Part shown: positions 39,620 to 49,466 of the stretch, in pieces
How positions within the stretch are numbered: position 1 is the stretch's first letter
How the letters are laid out: every line of letters starts with the position of its first letter
Origin: Anaeromyxobacter soli
GTDB taxonomy: Bacteria > Myxococcota > Myxococcia > Myxococcales > Anaeromyxobacteraceae
Direction of reading: 5' to 3'
Assembly: GCF_022808855.1 (NCBI RefSeq)
Contig: NZ_JAKZLF010000001.1
Location: 124,001-188,000, forward strand
Length of the DNA: 64,000 nt
The notes under the pieces: model-generated
What the model was told of the DNA's origin: nothing
The model's input: the letters and a program-made list of their open reading frames with translations, nothing else
The model's database searches: none
Position numbers and translations under genes: made by a program

Positions 39620-41263
<1,644 letters not shown>

Positions 41264-41325: not shown

Positions 41326-42183
41326 ATGCGCCTCCCGGCGGCGGTCGCCGCCCTGCTCCTCTCGCTCTCGTCGCCGCCCGCGCGCGCGCCGGGGCCGCCG
41401 CCTGCGCCGCCCGCTCCCCGCGCCGGCCACGCGGCGCCGGGGGGCTTCGGGGTGCTCCAGCCCGGGCTCGAGCTCGGCCAGTTCGCCGGCCCGGCCGCCG
41501 AGGGCCGCGCGCAGCCCATCGCGATCGTGCGCATCGACCCCGCGCGCTTCGAGCTCAGGCTGCTCAACGCCTCCGCGCCCGGCGAGGGCAGCCTGCGCAG
41601 CGCTCGCGCCTGGGCGGCGCGCGCCGGGGCGGCCGCCGCCATCAACGCGAGCATGTACCAGCAGGACTACCGCACGAGCGTCTCGCTCATGCGCACGCGG
41701 CAGCACGTGAACCAGCGGCGCGTCTCGAGGGACCGCTCGGTGCTGGCCTTCGACCCCCTCGAGCGCGGCGCCGCGCCGGTCCGGCTCATCGATCGCGACT
41801 GCGACGACCTCGAGACGGTCGCGAAGGCGTATGGGACCCTCGTGCAATCGATCCGGCTCGTCTCCTGCGACCGGCGGAACGTGTGGGCCCCGTCGCAGCG
41901 GCGCTTCTCGGCGGCGGCGATCGGCATGGACGGGAAGGGGCGCGTCCTCTTCATCCACGCGCGGACACCCTGGCCCGTCTACGACCTCGTGAACGCGCTC
42001 CTCGCGCTCCCGATCGACCTGCGCCAGGCGATGTACGTCGAGGGCGGCCCCGAGGCTCAGCTCTACGTGCGCGGCGGCGGGGGCGAGCACGAGTGGGTGG
42101 GCGGATTCGAGCACCTGCCGCAGGCCGATAACCACGAGCCCTGGCCGGTCCCCAACGTGGTGGCCGCCGTCCGTCGCCGCTGA
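41326..42183 (+). CDS. Phosphodiester-glycosidase-like (NAGPA/DUF2233) exported protein
   Basis: 285 residues with a signal peptide and an Ala/Pro linker. The body has IVRIDPARFELRLLNASAPG, AAAAINASMYQQDYRTSVSL and a late FIHARTPWPVYDLVNALLAL followed by MYVEGGPEAQLYVRG, a pattern typical of NAGPA-domain proteins that cleave sugar-phosphodiester caps or exopolysaccharide linkages. Periplasmic or surface. It lies 160 bases upstream of the GH8-GT2-PilZ gene on the same strand and may belong to the same polysaccharide unit. Substrate inferred only from family. Confidence 0.82.
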   Translation: MRLPAAVAALLLSLSSPPARAPGPPPAPPAPRAGHAAPGGFGVLQPGLELGQFAGPAAEGRAQPIAIVRIDPARFELRLLNASAPGEGSLRSARAWAARAGAAAAINASMYQQDYRTSVSLMRTRQHVNQRRVSRDRSVLAFDPLERGAAPVRLIDRDCDDLETVAKAYGTLVQSIRLVSCDRRNVWAPSQRRFSAAAIGMDGKGRVLFIHARTPWPVYDLVNALLALPIDLRQAMYVEGGPEAQLYVRGGGGEHEWVGGFEHLPQADNHEPWPVPNVVAAVRRR

Positions 42184-42343: not shown

Positions 42344-45300
42344 ATGCGGGACCTCGCCTGGATCCTCCTCCTCCCCCTCTCCGCCCTCCTCGCCTGCGGC
42401 CACGGCGACGCGGGCCGCGCGCGCGACGCCCGGGCGCGCGAGCGCGACGAGCTCTCCGCCCTGTGGAGCTTCTATCGCTACGCGCACGTGGAGCGCGGCC
42501 GCGTCGTGGAGCGCGACGAGGGCGGCATCACGACCTCCGAGGGCCAGTCGTACGCGCTCCTCCGCGCCGTGTGGGCCGGCGATCGCGCCACCTTCGACGA
42601 GGTGTGGCGCTGGACGCGCGAGAACCTCCAGGTCCGCGACGACCGGCTCCTCGCCTGGAAGTGGAAGGACGGCGTCCAGGATCGGAACGCCGCGACCGAC
42701 GCGGATCAGGACAGCGCCCTCGCGCTCGTGCTGGCGTCGCGCCGGTTCGGCGAGGCGCGCTACCTCGAGGAGGCGAGGCGCCTCCTCGCGGACGTCTGGG
42801 CGCGCGAGGTGATCCAGGCAGGCGGGAGGTTCCTGCCCACCGGCGGGAACTGGGCGCCGCGCGAGCGCTACCCCACCATCCACGTCGCCTACCTCGCCCC
42901 CTACGCCTACGAGGTCTTCGCCGAGGTCGATCCGGCCCACCCGTGGAAGGAGCTCGTGCGCGGGAGCTACGAGGTCCTCCGCTTCCTCTACTTCGACAAG
43001 GGGCTCGTGCTGCCGCCCGAGCGGATCTGGGTGGATCCGCGGTCCGGCGCCCTGCTCCTCGAGAAGCCCGGGGGCGGCGCGCCCCAGGTCTTCGGCTACG
43101 ACGCAGTCCCGATCTTCTGGCGCGTCGCGCTCGACGCGCGCTGGTTCGGGAGGCGCGGCGAGGCGGACCTGCGCGCCCGCATGCTCGCCTTCCCGCGCGA
43201 GGCCCTCCGCGCCGAGGGGCGGCTCCGCGATCGCTACACCCCCGGCGGCCGCGCGCTGTCGGAGCTCGACGGCCAGCCGCACATGGCCTCCGTCGCGGCC
43301 CTCGCGGCGGTGGAGGACCCGGCGCTCGCCGCCGGGCTGCGCGAGGGGAAGCTCGACTCGATCTTCGAGCGGGCGCTCGCGGGCGAGGAGACCCCTTACT
43401 ACCTGCACAACTGGCTCTGGCTCGGGCGCGCGCTCGAGCTCGGCGTCACGCGCCGCTTCGACGAGCCGCTCGCGTTCCTGCTCGGGATCGACTGGAGCCC
43501 GTTCGAGGAGCGCTTCCCGCTCCTGCCGGTGCTCGCGGCCCTCGCGCTCGCGCCGCTCGCGAGGCGGTTCACCTGGGCTCGCGCGGGGCTCGTCGCGCTC
43601 GCGGTCGCCCTCTCCGCGCGCTACCTGGGCTGGCGCGCCCGCGAGACGCTCAACTTCGTCGAGCCGCTCGGGCCGGTCATCAGCCTGTCGCTCCTCGCCG
43701 CGGAGGCGTACGCGTTCTCGACCGTCCTCCTCCTCGTCGTGCAGGTCGGCGTCTCGCGGCGCCGGCGCGAGGCGCCCGCGGCGCTCGCGCCGGGCGAGAA
43801 CGCACCGTCCGTGGACGTGTTCGTCCCCATCTACTCCGAGTCGCTCGAGATCCTCGACAAGACGCTCGCCGCCTGCATGGCCATGCGCTACTCGAGGATG
43901 ACCGTCCACGTCTGCGACGACTCGCACCGCGAGTCGGTCGCGCGGCTCGCCGCCGAGCACGGCGCGCGGTACATCGCCGGGCCGAAGCGGCACGCCAAGG
44001 CGGGGAACCTCAACAACGCGCTCTCGCTCACGGCGGGAGAGCTCGTCGTGGTGTTCGACACCGACCACGTGCCGAGCGCCGCGTTCCTCGAGCGCACGGT
44101 CCCGCACTTCCGCGACGCGCGCATGGGCGTCGTCCAGACGCCCCACCACTTCTACAACCCCGACGTCTTCCAGCGCGCGTTCGGGACGGGCCCCGCCGTG
44201 CCGAACGAGGCGGACCTCTTCAACCACGCCATCCAGGCGGGCCGCGATCGCTGGGGGGGCGCGTTCTTCGTGGGCTCGGGCGCCGTGTTCCGCCGCGCCG
44301 CCATCGCCTCGGTGGGCGGCTTCAACCTGCTCTCCATCACCGAGGACATCCACACGAGCCAGAAGCTGCACGCGCGTGGCTGGCGCTCGGCGTTCGTGGA
44401 CGAGGACCTCGCCGTCGGGCTCTCCGCCGAGAACGTGCAGAGCTACCTCGTGCAGCGGCGCCGCTGGATGCTGGGGTGCCTGCAGATCTTCTTCAAGGAC
44501 AACCCGCTCCTCGAGCGCGGCCTCCCGCTCCGCCACCGCGTCGGCTACTTCGCCTCGCTCTGGTACTTCTTCTTCCCGCTGGCGCGGGTCGCCTTCTTCC
44601 TGACGCCGCTCTGGTACCTGCTCTTCCACCTCCACCCGCTCTTCGCGGACCTCCCCGTCCTCCTCGCGTACCTCGTCCCCCACCTCCTGCTCTCCACGCT
44701 CGCCGCGAACGCGCTCCTCCCCGGCTGGCCCCGGCTGCTGTGGGGGACCGTCTACGAGGCCGCGGTGGCCTTCCCGCTCGCCCGGGCGACCCTCGACCTG
44801 CTCCTGCCGAAGAGCCTCGGGTTCAAGGTGACGCCCAAGGGGATCGTGTCGGACCGCCGCCGGTTCGACGCGTCCTCCTCGCGGCTCACGATCGCTGCCG
44901 CGGCGCTCGCCGCGGTCGCGCTCGGGAAGGGTGCGTTCGAGCTCCTGGCGTTCGGGATCGAGGTCGAGGCGTACGCGTTCAACCTGTTCTGGGCCGGCGC
45001 GAACCTCGCCGCCGTGCTCGCGGCGCTCCTCGTCGCGTGGGAGCGGCCGCAGCGCCGCGAGGACGAGCGCGTGCGGCGGCGCGTGCCCGTGCGCGTCGAG
45101 GCGCCGGGGCTCGCGCTCTCCGCGGAGACGGTGGACCTCTCCCTCACCGGCGCGGCGCTCCGGCTGCCCGCGGGCGCGACCCTGCCCGCCGAGGTCGAGC
45201 TCTCGTTCGTGACGCCCGAGCCGCTGCGAGTGCGCGCCCGCGTCGCCTGGCGCGAGGAGGTGCAGGGGACGGCCCGGGCCGGCCTCGCGTTCGAGGGGCT

Positions 45301-45736
45301 CCCCGCGGAGTCGCGCCGCGCGCTCGTGCGGATCGCCTTCTCCGCCGAGGAGGCGTTCGCGGGCGCCCACGACGGGCGCACCCGCAGCCAGGTCGCGATG
45401 GCGCTCCAGCTCCTCGCCGGGATCGTCCGCGCGTTCCTGCCGCTCCGCGCGCGCCGTCGCCTGGCGCCCCGCCGCGGGACGCTGCGCGGGCTCGCGTGGG
45501 TGGGGGCCTCCCGGCGCGTCCGGGGCGTCGTGCTCGACACCTCGCCGGGGGGGCTCGGCGCGCTCTTCCTCGGGAGACCGCCGGCGGAAGCCCTGCCCGT
45601 CGTGCTGCGCGATGGCGTGCGCTGGGTGCGCGTCGCGCACGCACGCCGGGTGCTCCCGGGGCTGTGGCGCGCGGGGCTCGCCTTCCTGCCCGCCCCGCTC
45701 CCGGGCGGCGAGGCGCATGAATACCTTGCCGCCTAG
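42344..45736 (+). CDS. GH8-GT2-PilZ-PilZ fusion: cellulose-synthase-like enzyme with built-in hydrolase
   Basis: 1130 residues. A signal/lipobox-like start (LLACGH) leads to an extracytoplasmic GH8 domain (about 40-370) with TSEGQSYAL (Glu66, BcsZ-type acid) and TDADQD. Membrane helices (about 388-470) precede a processive GT2 core with VCDDSH (about 523), DTDHVP (572), FFVGSG, TEDIHTS (665) and QRRRW (704): the full D, DxD, TED, Q-x-x-RW set. More helices follow, then PilZ one (RRRVPVRVE near 911, DLSLTG) and PilZ two (RRRLAPRR near 1036, DTSPGG near 1065). Cyclic-di-GMP control of glucan synthesis is a strong inference; the product need not be cellulose. GH8 and synthase are usually separate proteins (BcsZ, BcsA). 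Confidence 0.9.
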   Translation: MRDLAWILLLPLSALLACGHGDAGRARDARARERDELSALWSFYRYAHVERGRVVERDEGGITTSEGQSYALLRAVWAGDRATFDEVWRWTRENLQVRDDRLLAWKWKDGVQDRNAATDADQDSALALVLASRRFGEARYLEEARRLLADVWAREVIQAGGRFLPTGGNWAPRERYPTIHVAYLAPYAYEVFAEVDPAHPWKELVRGSYEVLRFLYFDKGLVLPPERIWVDPRSGALLLEKPGGGAPQVFGYDAVPIFWRVALDARWFGRRGEADLRARMLAFPREALRAEGRLRDRYTPGGRALSELDGQPHMASVAALAAVEDPALAAGLREGKLDSIFERALAGEETPYYLHNWLWLGRALELGVTRRFDEPLAFLLGIDWSPFEERFPLLPVLAALALAPLARRFTWARAGLVALAVALSARYLGWRARETLNFVEPLGPVISLSLLAAEAYAFSTVLLLVVQVGVSRRRREAPAALAPGENAPSVDVFVPIYSESLEILDKTLAACMAMRYSRMTVHVCDDSHRESVARLAAEHGARYIAGPKRHAKAGNLNNALSLTAGELVVVFDTDHVPSAAFLERTVPHFRDARMGVVQTPHHFYNPDVFQRAFGTGPAVPNEADLFNHAIQAGRDRWGGAFFVGSGAVFRRAAIASVGGFNLLSITEDIHTSQKLHARGWRSAFVDEDLAVGLSAENVQSYLVQRRRWMLGCLQIFFKDNPLLERGLPLRHRVGYFASLWYFFFPLARVAFFLTPLWYLLFHLHPLFADLPVLLAYLVPHLLLSTLAANALLPGWPRLLWGTVYEAAVAFPLARATLDLLLPKSLGFKVTPKGIVSDRRRFDASSSRLTIAAAALAAVALGKGAFELLAFGIEVEAYAFNLFWAGANLAAVLAALLVAWERPQRREDERVRRRVPVRVEAPGLALSAETVDLSLTGAALRLPAGATLPAEVELSFVTPEPLRVRARVAWREEVQGTARAGLAFEGLPAESRRALVRIAFSAEEAFAGAHDGRTRSQVAMALQLLAGIVRAFLPLRARRRLAPRRGTLRGLAWVGASRRVRGVVLDTSPGGLGALFLGRPPAEALPVVLRDGVRWVRVAHARRVLPGLWRAGLAFLPAPLPGGEAHEYLAA

Positions 45737-45769: not shown

Positions 45770-47848
45770 ATGAGCCCCTCGATCCGCACCGCGATCATCG
45801 CGGCCGCGCTCGCCCTCGCGCCCGCGGCGCGCGCCGGCCTCGCCGAGTCCTGGTACCTGTCGCGCGGCCGCGCGAACATGCAGATCGCGAACTACGGCGC
45901 CGCCATCGAGGCGTGGCGCAAGGCGCTCGAGCTGAACCCGAACAGCCGCGAGGCCTCCCACGAGCTGTGCAGGGCGCTGCTCCAGAACGGCGAGACGGAC
46001 CGCGCCGTCGCCGAGCTCGATCGCCACCTCGCGCGCTTCCCCGACGACTGGCAGCTCGCGTTCGAGCAAGCCCGCCTGCTGCAGTGGTCCCGGTACGCGT
46101 ACCGCTCGAAGGACGCGGTGAGGTACCTGCGCATGGGCCTCGGCCGCCGGGACGATCCCGCGCGCCGCCACGAGCTCGCGCGGCTCCTGGGGCGCGACCG
46201 CGCCACCCTCGACGAGGCGCTCGCGGAGTACCGGACGCTCCTCTCGGGCGCGCCGGAGGACGCGGCGCTGCGCGACGAGTGGCTGAAGCTCCTGCTCTGG
46301 GATCGCCGCCACCGCGACGAGGCCGTGCGCGAGCTCGAGCGACGCCTCGCCGCGAGCCCCGGGGACGAGCGCGCCGCGCGCGAGCTCGCCCGGATCACGG
46401 CCGAGGATCCGCGCCGGGCGGGAGAGGCGGCCGGGCGCTACGCGGCGCTCCTCGAGCGCCACCCCGACGATCCCGATCTGCGGCTCGGCCGCGCCCGCGC
46501 GCTCGCCCGCGCGGGGCGGCGCGACGAGGCGCGCGGCGAGTACGCGCGCGCGCTCGCGCTCCGGCCCTCCCCCGAGACGAGGCTCGAGTACGCCGAGGTG
46601 CTCGCTGCCGATCCCGCCTCGGCCGACGCCGCCCGCCGCGAGTACGAGGCGGTCCTGCGCGAGCGGCCGCGCTCGCGGCGCGCCCGGGTCGGCCTCGCTC
46701 GGGTCCTCGGTGCGCGCCGGGAGACGAGCAAGGACGCCATCGCGGTCTACGAGACCGTGCTCGCCGAGGCGCCGAACGACGCGGAGGCGCACCGCGGCCT
46801 CGCGCACGCCTTCGCCTGGAACGGCGACGCCGACCGCGCCCTCGCGCACGGGGAGCTCGCCGAGCGGTACGGCCCGGCGCGCCCGGACGTCGCCGCGCTG
46901 GAGCGCTCGCTCCGCGTGGGGCGCGAGCCGGCCGCGGGCGGCGGCGCGCGGGTGCTCGCGCAGCCGGGCGGCGCGAGGCTCTCGCGGGTGGGCGCCTTCG
47001 TGTCCGGCGCCGCGGAGCCGACGCCATTCACCTCGAGCGCCGTCGAGGCGGGGTTCGCCGTCGCGCGCGGGGAGGCGGGCGCCGAGGCCTCGGGGGCCGA
47101 CGTGAGGGTGCAGGGCGAGTGGCGCCCGTCGCCGGGGACGCGGCTCGAGCTGCGGGGCGCGCTCGACGGCGTGCGCCGCGGGGCCGCCGGACTGTCGGGC
47201 GGCGTGGCCCTCCAGCGCGCCACCGAGGACCGGCGGGCCTCGCTGGAGCTCCGGCGCGCCTCGCGCCTCGACTCCTTCCGCGCCTACGCCGGCGAGGGCG
47301 CCGGCGACGCGCGCGTGGGGGCGGCGAGCGACAACCTCGTGGAGCTTCGCCTGGCAGGCGGCAGCGCCACGCGGGTCGAGCTCACCGCGCGCGCGGGATC
47401 CATCTCCGCCGAGCGGATCTCGCCGGTCTTCGCGGCGGGCCTGGGCGCCCGCGTCGATCGGGCGCTCACGCGAGCCCGCGGGTTCGCGATCGCGGCGGGC
47501 GTCTCCGCGGACGCCCTCCACCACGCCCGCGATCTCTCCGCGACGAGCGACCCGCTGGACGCCGCTCCGGGCGTGTTCTCGCCGCCGCTCTTCGTCTCGG
47601 CCTCGCCACGCCTGTCCGTGACCCGCGAGGCGGGCGCGCGCGGCTGGCTCTCGCTCGACGCCGGGCCCGCGCTGCAGGTCGTGGGCGGCGCGGGAGGTGG
47701 AGTCCGCGCCGGCGGCGACGCCCGGCTCGCGTTCGCGCAGCGCGTCGGCCAGCGGCTCCGGGTCGGCGGCGAGGCGCGCGCGGAGCGGGTGGCGGACGTG
47801 TACACGCGGCTCGAGGCGGCGCTCACCGCGTCGCTGCTCTTCCCCTGA
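45770..47848 (+). CDS. BcsC-like TPR periplasmic/outer-membrane export protein
   Basis: 692 residues. A signal peptide (to about ARAG, 24) precedes roughly ten TPR-like repeats (about 28-385, starting with ANYGAAIEAWRKALELNPNS). The C-terminal 300 residues are Gly/Ala/Arg-rich with alternating hydrophobics and end in TASLLFP, a terminal aromatic signal for an outer-membrane beta-barrel. This is the BcsC/AlgK-AlgE-like plan for guiding a polymer to and across the outer membrane. It begins 33 bases after the synthase gene and 10 bases before the pseudokinase gene. Confidence 0.82.
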   Translation: MSPSIRTAIIAAALALAPAARAGLAESWYLSRGRANMQIANYGAAIEAWRKALELNPNSREASHELCRALLQNGETDRAVAELDRHLARFPDDWQLAFEQARLLQWSRYAYRSKDAVRYLRMGLGRRDDPARRHELARLLGRDRATLDEALAEYRTLLSGAPEDAALRDEWLKLLLWDRRHRDEAVRELERRLAASPGDERAARELARITAEDPRRAGEAAGRYAALLERHPDDPDLRLGRARALARAGRRDEARGEYARALALRPSPETRLEYAEVLAADPASADAARREYEAVLRERPRSRRARVGLARVLGARRETSKDAIAVYETVLAEAPNDAEAHRGLAHAFAWNGDADRALAHGELAERYGPARPDVAALERSLRVGREPAAGGGARVLAQPGGARLSRVGAFVSGAAEPTPFTSSAVEAGFAVARGEAGAEASGADVRVQGEWRPSPGTRLELRGALDGVRRGAAGLSGGVALQRATEDRRASLELRRASRLDSFRAYAGEGAGDARVGAASDNLVELRLAGGSATRVELTARAGSISAERISPVFAAGLGARVDRALTRARGFAIAAGVSADALHHARDLSATSDPLDAAPGVFSPPLFVSASPRLSVTREAGARGWLSLDAGPALQVVGGAGGGVRAGGDARLAFAQRVGQRLRVGGEARAERVADVYTRLEAALTASLLFP

Positions 47849-47858
47849 GCGGCCGGCC

Positions 47859-49466
47859 ATGACTCCGGCGCGCGAGGCGATCACGGCGAGCGGGGGCGCG
47901 GCGGCGCGAACCCTGCCCATGCCCGGCCACGCCCTCGTCTCGGTGCTCCGCCCCGGCCGGACGCTGCTCGTGCGGGCGGAGGCGGCCGGGACGCTCGCCG
48001 TGCTCCGCCGGGCGGGCGTCGGACGAGGAGAGCTCGAGCGCCGGGCGCGCGCCTGCGCCGGCGCCTCGGCGGCCGTGCTGGAGCACGAGGGCGCCGCACA
48101 CCTCCTCCGCCCGTTCGTGCCGGGCCGGACGCTCACCGAGGTGCTCGCCGCCCCGCCGCCGGTCGCCGCGGCTCTCGACCTCGCCGGCGCGCTCGCCCGC
48201 GCCGTCCTCGTTCTGCACGGGCGCGGCCGCGTGCACGGTCGGTTGCACCCGGGCAACGTCGTCGTCGCGGCGGACGGGTCCGTGACGCTCGTCGACGCCG
48301 AGCTGCCGTTCCACCCCGATCCCGCCGATCCCGCCGCCGCCTCCGCCCTCGGCTTCGCAGCCCCCGAGCTCCTCCGCGGCGGCGCGCCGTCCCGCGGCGG
48401 AGACGCGTTCGCGCTCGCCGCGATGATCTACGCGCTGCTCACCCGTCGTCCGCCCTTCCCGGCCGAGACGCCGCTCGAGGCCATCCGCCGCGTGCTCCAC
48501 GAGGAGCCGGTCCCGCTCGCCGTGCTTCGCCCCGATCTTCCCGCCGGGCTCGCCGCGGCGGTCACCCGCGGGCTCTCCCGGCGCGCGTGGAGACGGACGA
48601 CCGCGGCGCAGCTCGCCGAGGAGCTCCGCGTCGTGCTGGGCAGCGCGAGGCTCGGGGAGCCGACCGCGAGCGCGGCCTCGCTCCCGGCGGCGGCTGCGGC
48701 CGCGCAGACGACGGGGCTGCACACCTCGACCTCGACCTCGACCGCGACCGCGACCGCGACCGCGACTGCGACCCGGACCCCGACCCCGACCCTGACCCCG
48801 ACCCCGACCCTGACCCCGACCCCGACCCTGACCCCGACCCCGACCCTGACCGCGACCGCGACCCCGACCCCATCTCCGACCCCCGCCCATCGCCCCTTCC
48901 CGCCCGCCATCCTCGTCGCGCTCACCCGGGCGCCGGGCCTCGCTCGCGCTTTCGTCGCCTCTCCACGGCGCCTCACGCTCCTCGCCCTCCCCGCCCTCGC
49001 GCTCGCGGCGCTGTACCTGCCCCGGAGCGAGGCGGCGCTCGCAGGCGACGTCGCATCGCTCCTGAGGAGCGGCCGGCTCGCGGACGCGCGCGCCCGGGTC
49101 GACCAGGCCGCGAGGAGCCGGCCGGGCGATCCGCTCGTCGAGAAGCTCCGCGGCGACGTCGCGTGCGCCCGCGGCGCGAGCGGTGAGTGCCTGCGGCGCT
49201 ACCGCGTCGCGCTCGCCGCCCGCCCGGCGCTGCGCGAGGACGCGGCGCTCCGCGAGAACGCCCGGAAGCTCCTCGCCGGCGCCCAGAGCTGCGGCTCGCG
49301 CCGCGCGGCGGCGGAGCTCCTCGGCGAGCTGCGCGACCCGGCGGCGCTCCCCGCGCTCGAGTCGGCGCGGCGCGCCGGCGGGCTCTTCTCCTGGTTCTGC
49401 ACGGGCGACGCGATCGATCGCGCCATCCTGGCGACGCGACAGACGGAGCGGACCGCCGCGGACTGA
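47859..49466 (+). CDS. Ser/Thr kinase-fold pseudokinase with Thr-Pro repeats, one helix and TPR-like tail
   Basis: 535 residues. A eukaryotic-type kinase fold spans about 20-265. The catalytic loop reads HGRLHPGN where HRDLKPEN is expected, so the proton-acceptor Asp is missing; the DFG position reads VDAEL; no clear VAIK Lys or glycine loop is visible. APELLRGG and DAFALAAMIYALLT keep the C-lobe. A Thr-rich linker (289-345) holds TPTPTL four times. A membrane helix follows (about 371-388), then about 145 residues of TPR-like helices that should be periplasmic. Third gene of the polysaccharide operon; probably a regulatory scaffold. Confidence 0.75.
   Translation: MTPAREAITASGGAAARTLPMPGHALVSVLRPGRTLLVRAEAAGTLAVLRRAGVGRGELERRARACAGASAAVLEHEGAAHLLRPFVPGRTLTEVLAAPPPVAAALDLAGALARAVLVLHGRGRVHGRLHPGNVVVAADGSVTLVDAELPFHPDPADPAAASALGFAAPELLRGGAPSRGGDAFALAAMIYALLTRRPPFPAETPLEAIRRVLHEEPVPLAVLRPDLPAGLAAAVTRGLSRRAWRRTTAAQLAEELRVVLGSARLGEPTASAASLPAAAAAAQTTGLHTSTSTSTATATATATATRTPTPTLTPTPTLTPTPTLTPTPTLTATATPTPSPTPAHRPFPPAILVALTRAPGLARAFVASPRRLTLLALPALALAALYLPRSEAALAGDVASLLRSGRLADARARVDQAARSRPGDPLVEKLRGDVACARGASGECLRRYRVALAARPALREDAALRENARKLLAGAQSCGSRRAAAELLGELRDPAALPALESARRAGGLFSWFCTGDAIDRAILATRQTERTAAD
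48777..48848. repeat. 18-base tandem repeat, four units, in the pseudokinase gene
   Basis: Four near-identical units with consensus ACCCCGACCCCGACCCTG encode TPTPTL, preceded by a six-base ACCTCG/ACCGCG series (48723-48770) coding for TSTSTS and TATATA. The tract may expand or contract by slippage in units that keep the reading frame. Confidence 0.9.

Follow-up and report, generated by a model that had tools for sequence, protein, structure and literature searches.

The question raised by this locus is whether one protein can make, sense and trim a secreted polysaccharide. The window analysed here is the whole stretch of 64,000 nucleotides from Anaeromyxobacter soli (contig NZ_JAKZLF010000001.1, positions 124,001 to 188,000), and it contains a gene in which a first-pass annotation had recognised a family 8 glycoside hydrolase (GH8), a family 2 glycosyltransferase (GT2) and two PilZ domains. 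That annotation contrasted the gene with the Bcs cellulose system, where the hydrolase (BcsZ) and the synthase (BcsA) are separate. This is right for the canonical operons, and a precedent for a hydrolase-GT2 fusion exists in the GH17-GT2 proteins (PMC10237404). The fusion is a well-supported, conserved feature. Its sequence makes it likely that it belongs to a two-gene, BcsB-independent beta-glucan secretion system gated by cyclic di-GMP (c-di-GMP), probably for cellulose, with a built-in periplasmic endoglucanase.

Architecture of the fusion protein

The proposal of one 1130-residue polypeptide holding a GH8 domain, a GT2 domain and two PilZ domains proved accurate, and the frame occupies exactly the predicted interval. 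Its parts are the following (TM, transmembrane; AF2, AlphaFold2 model):

42344..45736, + strand: GH8-GT2-PilZ-PilZ fusion protein, open from the ATG at 42344 to the stop at 45736, 1130 residues; Pfam and NCBIfam matches, 30 loci
42344..42409, + strand: signal-sequence-like hydrophobic N-terminus, residues 1-22; hydropathy, N-termini of relatives, low-confidence model helix 2-16
42413..43438, + strand: GH8 endoglucanase domain, residues 24-365, predicted to be periplasmic, with E66 and D253 as catalytic residues; PF01270, structure match, CelA alignment
43514..43753, + strand: three TM helices, residues ~391-470, equivalent to BcsA TM2-TM4, with TM1 missing; hydropathy, AF2, E. coli BcsA alignment
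43793..44503, + strand: GT2 cellulose-synthase catalytic domain, residues 484-720; D526, D572xD574, TED 666-668, Q704xxRW708
44528..45043, + strand: TM5-TM8 and gating loop F827KVTPK832, residues 729-900; hydropathy, AF2, invariant loop residues
45044..45343, + strand: PilZ1, residues 901-1000, R905xxxR909 and D931xSxxG936; PF07238 (1.5e-17), motif conservation
45440..45733, + strand: PilZ2, degenerate, residues 1033-1130, R1039xxxR1043 and D1065xSxxG1070; hhalign, AF2 strands, fold search, motif

The synthase part is of the BcsA type. The best NCBIfam match is TIGR03030 (CelA, UDP-forming cellulose synthase catalytic subunit) over residues 396-1021 (9.9e-156), with a score of 519.7 bits that misses the curated cut-off of 699.1, and the PgaC profile reaches only 64.4 bits. 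Several Pfam GT2 models also match the protein, and the closest solved structures by sequence are BcsA of E. coli and R. sphaeroides (1.5e-95) and GH8 endoglucanases. In the structure comparison, the fusion model aligns with GH8 enzymes over residues 26-378 and with BcsA chains over 384-1033, the latter with Z of 27-36. All key synthase motifs had been reported as present, and an alignment of 27 sequences agrees: D526, D572/D574, D668, QxxRW and the residues F827, V829, T830 and K832 of the FKVTPK gating loop are invariant (27/27). The C-terminal PilZ domain expected of a BcsA-type protein is also there (PF07238), with R905, R909, D931, S933 and G936.

The assignment of the N-terminal region to GH8, on which the idea of a fused hydrolase depended, holds as well. 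PF01270 matches residues 41-330 (1.1e-33), and NF008305, the BcsZ equivalog, matches residues 40-213 with 103.8 bits, under its curated cut-off of 299. Against solved GH8 enzymes the domain gives Z of 33-39; the top match is the beta-1,3-1,4-glucanase 5xd0 (38.6), and CelA is level with it (38.5). The GH8 glutamate noted earlier is the acid E66, invariant in the 25/25 sequences with coverage there, while D119, D121 and the base D253 are invariant in 27/27. E66 and D253 align with the catalytic positions of CelA, which we take to be Glu95 and Asp278. Because these residues are invariant and aligned with CelA, the GH8 domain is, judging from its sequence, not a dead domain. The stretch after the base (PIFWRVALDARWFG) is closer to CelA than to BcsZ of split operons; bcsZ may therefore not be the direct ancestor of the domain. 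No second GH8 was found in the same genome, where the fusion carries the only one.

These matches bear on the identity of the polymer, which could be a beta-glucan other than cellulose, such as a mixed-linkage (1,3;1,4)-beta-glucan with the GH8 domain as a lichenase-type editor. The top structure match to a beta-1,3-1,4-glucanase and the TIGR03030 score under its cut-off would fit this, as would the mixed-linkage glucan made by the BcsB-less GT2 of Romboutsia (PMC10374906). Nevertheless, it seems unlikely, given that the cellulose synthase profile scores far above those of other GT2 polymerases (519.7 bits against 64.4 for PgaC), that QxxRW, TED and the gating loop are BcsA-like and that the partner protein is BcsC-like. 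Cellulose is still regarded as the probable product.

Concerning the topology, hydrophobic segments and AF2 helices (TM helices at 393-405, 410-434 and 443-468) give the order signal-like N-terminus, GH8, three TM, GT2, four TM and PilZ domains. Arg-rich ends (ARRF and SRRRR) stand behind the first and third of the three TM helices and fit the cytoplasmic side. The signal-like N-terminus and these three helices thus predict a GH8 domain outside and a PilZ pair inside, as had been anticipated. The only hint of a possible lipoprotein anchoring of the GH8 domain is a lipobox-like LLAC in the window protein, which is not conserved in the relatives; these have AxA-type signal peptides. The TM1 region of E. 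coli BcsA pairs with a non-hydrophobic stretch of the fusion, R. sphaeroides BcsA aligns only from its residue 36 onward, and the GH8 domain occupies the place of TM1, the docking helix for BcsB. The N-terminal helix, which in BcsA of Cereibacter coils with BcsB, is missing in the BcsB-independent RiGT2 and in plant CesA (PMC10374906).

Of the two DxSxxG/RxxxR PilZ sites described in the first-pass annotation, PilZ1 is clear: PF07238 matches at 903-999 (1.5e-17) and the motif is nearly invariant across the aligned sequences. PilZ2 is degenerate. Pfam missed it in the fusion and matched it in 2/15 relatives (best E 0.059), and it could have been an over-reading; this was overturned by motif conservation, profile comparison and a fold search. 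Of its motif residues, R1039, R1043 and G1070 do not vary among 22 sequences and S1067 occurs in 21 of them; position 1065 always holds D or N (22/22). The PilZ1 and PilZ2 profiles align with an hhalign E of 8.6e-7 over 86 columns. The isolated PilZ2 model has a six-stranded core (pLDDT 75), and its first 30 structure matches are nearly all PilZ-containing chains with a modest Z of 5.5-7.8, unrelated rows reaching at most 5.1. A helix (1016-1030) stands ahead of PilZ2. Residue conservation is 0.37 in PilZ2 against 0.53 in PilZ1, below the rest of the protein, and three relatives (L022, L026 and L030) do not have the domain. PilZ2 probably adds a second c-di-GMP input or another regulatory one. 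The genome has 11 GGDEF matches, that is, diguanylate cyclase domains.

Distribution and ancestry of the fusion

The fusion turned up at 30 loci when 84,980 species genomes were scanned; with few exceptions these are either full-length or truncated at a contig end, and identity is about 48-95%. The hosts are Anaeromyxobacter, other Myxococcota, Nitrospira, a Fibrobacter, gammaproteobacteria and a record named Desulfosudis, and two metagenome-assembled genomes (MAGs) are labelled Bdellovibrio and KSB1, one each. A full-length search recovered the fusion from 12/195 genomes of Myxococcota, among them that of the window and eight more that are listed under its genus, and from 9 of the 245 genomes sampled in the phylum to which N. 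moscoviensis belongs. Non-fused relatives match only from residue ~360-420, with ~34-46% identity; therefore, fused and non-fused proteins separate cleanly.

A chance open reading frame (ORF), a misassembly or a gene-fusion artefact would be conceivable in a region where high GC content produces many long spurious ORFs, and long ORFs do occur there in other frames and on the opposite strand. But the same domain order is found at 30 loci of several phyla, among them the complete genomes of N. moscoviensis and A. oryzae, and the motifs are kept in 27/27 sequences, so that an artefact has next to no probability and was ruled out. A stop or frameshift between the domains, named at the outset as something that would speak against the fusion, was looked for and none was found; the order is the same in all 30 independent loci, contig-end truncations aside. 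As a separate observation, the frame is broken in two Nitrospira-type MAG copies (L014 and L025), which may be MAG errors or real pseudogenes.

The tree of GT2 domains places the fusions in a single clade (support 100/100) on a long stem, where long branches meet according to the warning of the tool. A single fusion event followed by spread would be the simplest reading.

The BcsC-like partner and the lack of BcsB

The first-pass annotation mentioned neither the conserved partner gene of the fusion nor the lack of BcsB, both of which were found here. The partner begins 33 bases downstream of the fusion:

45770..47848, + strand: BcsC-like protein with periplasmic tetratricopeptide repeats (TPRs) and an outer-membrane beta-barrel; TPR Pfam hits, BcsC profile matches

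A profile of 20 relatives of the partner matches the solved BcsC barrel 6tzk (5.7e-9) and the full BcsC 9b8a (1.5e-20), and BCSC_C was found in 16/20 of these relatives at E<=1 (best 4.4e-11). Wherever the sequence continues downstream of the fusion, the BcsC-like gene comes next (26/26 loci). The most conserved part of the partner is its N-terminal TPR segment, residues 24-130, with a conservation of 0.75 compared with 0.39 in its other TPRs. A Myxococcota MAG (L022:7989-12971) shows a peculiar arrangement, in which the frame runs stop-free from GH8-GT2-PilZ1 into the BcsC-like TPR/barrel part (1665 residues, PilZ2 missing); this may reflect a single giant polypeptide, a start codon within the frame or a faulty assembly.

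BcsB (PF03170) was sought in 27 distinct genomes with the fusion. It is never encoded at the fusion locus, and a search of these whole genomes gave nothing above the cut-off in 26 of them, the genome of the window included. The exception is the Fibrobacter, where PF03170 adjoins a separate split bcsA on another contig. Within Myxococcota, the 12 fusion genomes have no BcsB, whereas the genomes with a split BcsA all have it (6/6), in the operon order bcsA-bcsB-bcsZ-bcsC-like. Loss of BcsB does not single out the fusion, since some Nitrospirota have BcsA-like proteins with neither GH8 nor BcsB. N. moscoviensis also encodes a second BcsA-like protein (C1:4538011-4540074, L051; ~39% identity, with PilZ); no GH8 or TPR gene was recognised in its surroundings, and PF03170 is missing from the genome.

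E. coli BcsC uses its first TPR to dock on BcsB (PMC11379886). Without BcsB, the BcsC-like TPRs are likely to dock on either the GH8 domain or the synthase part of the fusion. This raises the possibility that the GH8 domain is mainly structural and stands in for BcsB as exit guide and TPR dock, hydrolysis being secondary. In favour of this, the fusion locus has neither BcsB nor TM1, the N-terminal TPR segment is the most conserved in the partner, and in Streptomyces an unrelated partner, GlxA, fills the role of second subunit (PMC11022532). On the other hand, the catalytic residues of GH8 are invariant in all relatives with coverage, so that hydrolysis is under selection, and BcsB-less BcsA-like proteins without GH8 exist; we therefore regard a mainly structural role as possible but the less probable option. 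A GH8 domain that took over the role of BcsB, guiding the chain at the channel exit and docking the TPR exporter while also cutting, is a similarly tentative idea. If true, it would mean a two-protein trans-envelope cellulose machine whose synthase includes the hydrolase as an integral subunit.

Proposed mechanism, known systems and neighbouring genes

In the secretion system that we favour, the cytoplasmic GT2 domain would polymerise UDP-glucose and c-di-GMP at PilZ1 would gate chain extrusion via the FKVTPK loop. The chain would cross the BcsA-type TM channel and meet the GH8 endoglucanase, which, tethered by the first TM helix still present (equivalent to BcsA TM2) at the site of the missing TM1 and BcsB, may trim or release it before it is handed on to the BcsC-like TPR/outer-membrane barrel of the next gene. 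The early suggestion that synthesis, sensing and trimming of the polymer could reside in one protein is consistent with all the features tested, as far as sequence can tell. Since hydrolase and synthase are locked 1:1 at one membrane site with the catalytic residues of both kept, trimming is probably coupled to extrusion. This is of interest because the need for a cellulase in making cellulose is an open question, BcsZ being separate in Bcs operons and its role debated. A beta-glucan under c-di-GMP control is also to be expected from this system in Anaeromyxobacter and in the major nitrifiers of Nitrospira.

Several points weigh against this proposal. The polymer need not be plain cellulose, considering that both the TIGR03030 and the BcsZ scores are below the curated cut-offs; cleavage of the signal sequence is uncertain; the domain placement in the AF2 model is uncertain (pTM 0.65); and Nitrospirota BcsA-like proteins without GH8 mostly have no PF03170 either.

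Compared with the Bcs system (BcsA, BcsB, BcsZ, BcsC), the fusion system shares the BcsA-type GT2, the TM core, the gating loop, PilZ, GH8 and the TPR/barrel exporter. It differs in having GH8 N-terminal on the synthase, a second PilZ and two genes instead of four; BcsA TM1 and BcsB are gone and the BcsC-like gene alongside is retained. Fused Bcs components are also found in Zymomonas as BcsZC and BcsAB, where other pairs are joined and BcsB is kept; the parts of that report consulted here do not describe a GH8-BcsA fusion (PMC7112194). GT2 beta-glucan synthases without BcsB are represented by RiGT2 of Romboutsia (PMC10374906), which likewise has no N-terminal TM helix, and by CslA-GlxA of Streptomyces (PMC11022532), but these are Gram-positive and have neither a fused GH8 nor a BcsC-like exporter. 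The fusion system gives an idea of how a Gram-negative design could do without BcsB.

The closest layout is that of the Pseudomonas NdvB/Orphan proteins, with a signal peptide, a periplasmic glycosyl hydrolase N-terminal on a BcsA-like TM region and a cytoplasmic GT2 in one polypeptide, a GH17 hydrolase and a proposed cyclic beta-1,3-glucan product (PMC10237404). By analogy, the hydrolase of the fusion might cyclise or transglycosylate the glucan into a periplasmic oligosaccharide, but its hydrolase domain is GH8 and not GH17, the BcsC-like outer-membrane exporter is conserved and the PilZ domains suggest biofilm control. GH17 enzymes are transglycosylases, unlike the inverting GH8 enzymes. 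Inversion, given for GH8 in the title of entry 1kwf, makes transglycosylation unlikely, and this option appears quite improbable. The layout of a hydrolase fused to GT2 was thus already known, and what is new is GH8 as the hydrolase, together with the PilZ domains and the exporter gene. A search of open-access papers turned up no GH8-GT2 fusion, although subscription journals or databases may mention one. The fusion gives the impression of a streamlined machine for cellulose secretion that has been little described.

Upstream of the fusion there are two neighbours:

39620..41263, - strand: phosphoglucomutase, possible substrate supply; Pfam, tblastn (L001, L002, L004)
41326..42183, + strand: NAGPA-type phosphodiester glycosidase; PF09992 (3.8e-18)

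Both were found only at Anaeromyxobacter loci, and no upstream partner is common to the phyla. Three ORFs upstream of the N. moscoviensis fusion gave no Pfam match and may be spurious. Finally, a hexanucleotide array (ACCCCG, 26.8 copies) at window positions 48723-48883 encodes a Thr-Pro linker in a kinase-like protein (47850-49466), and its copy number could vary without a frameshift.

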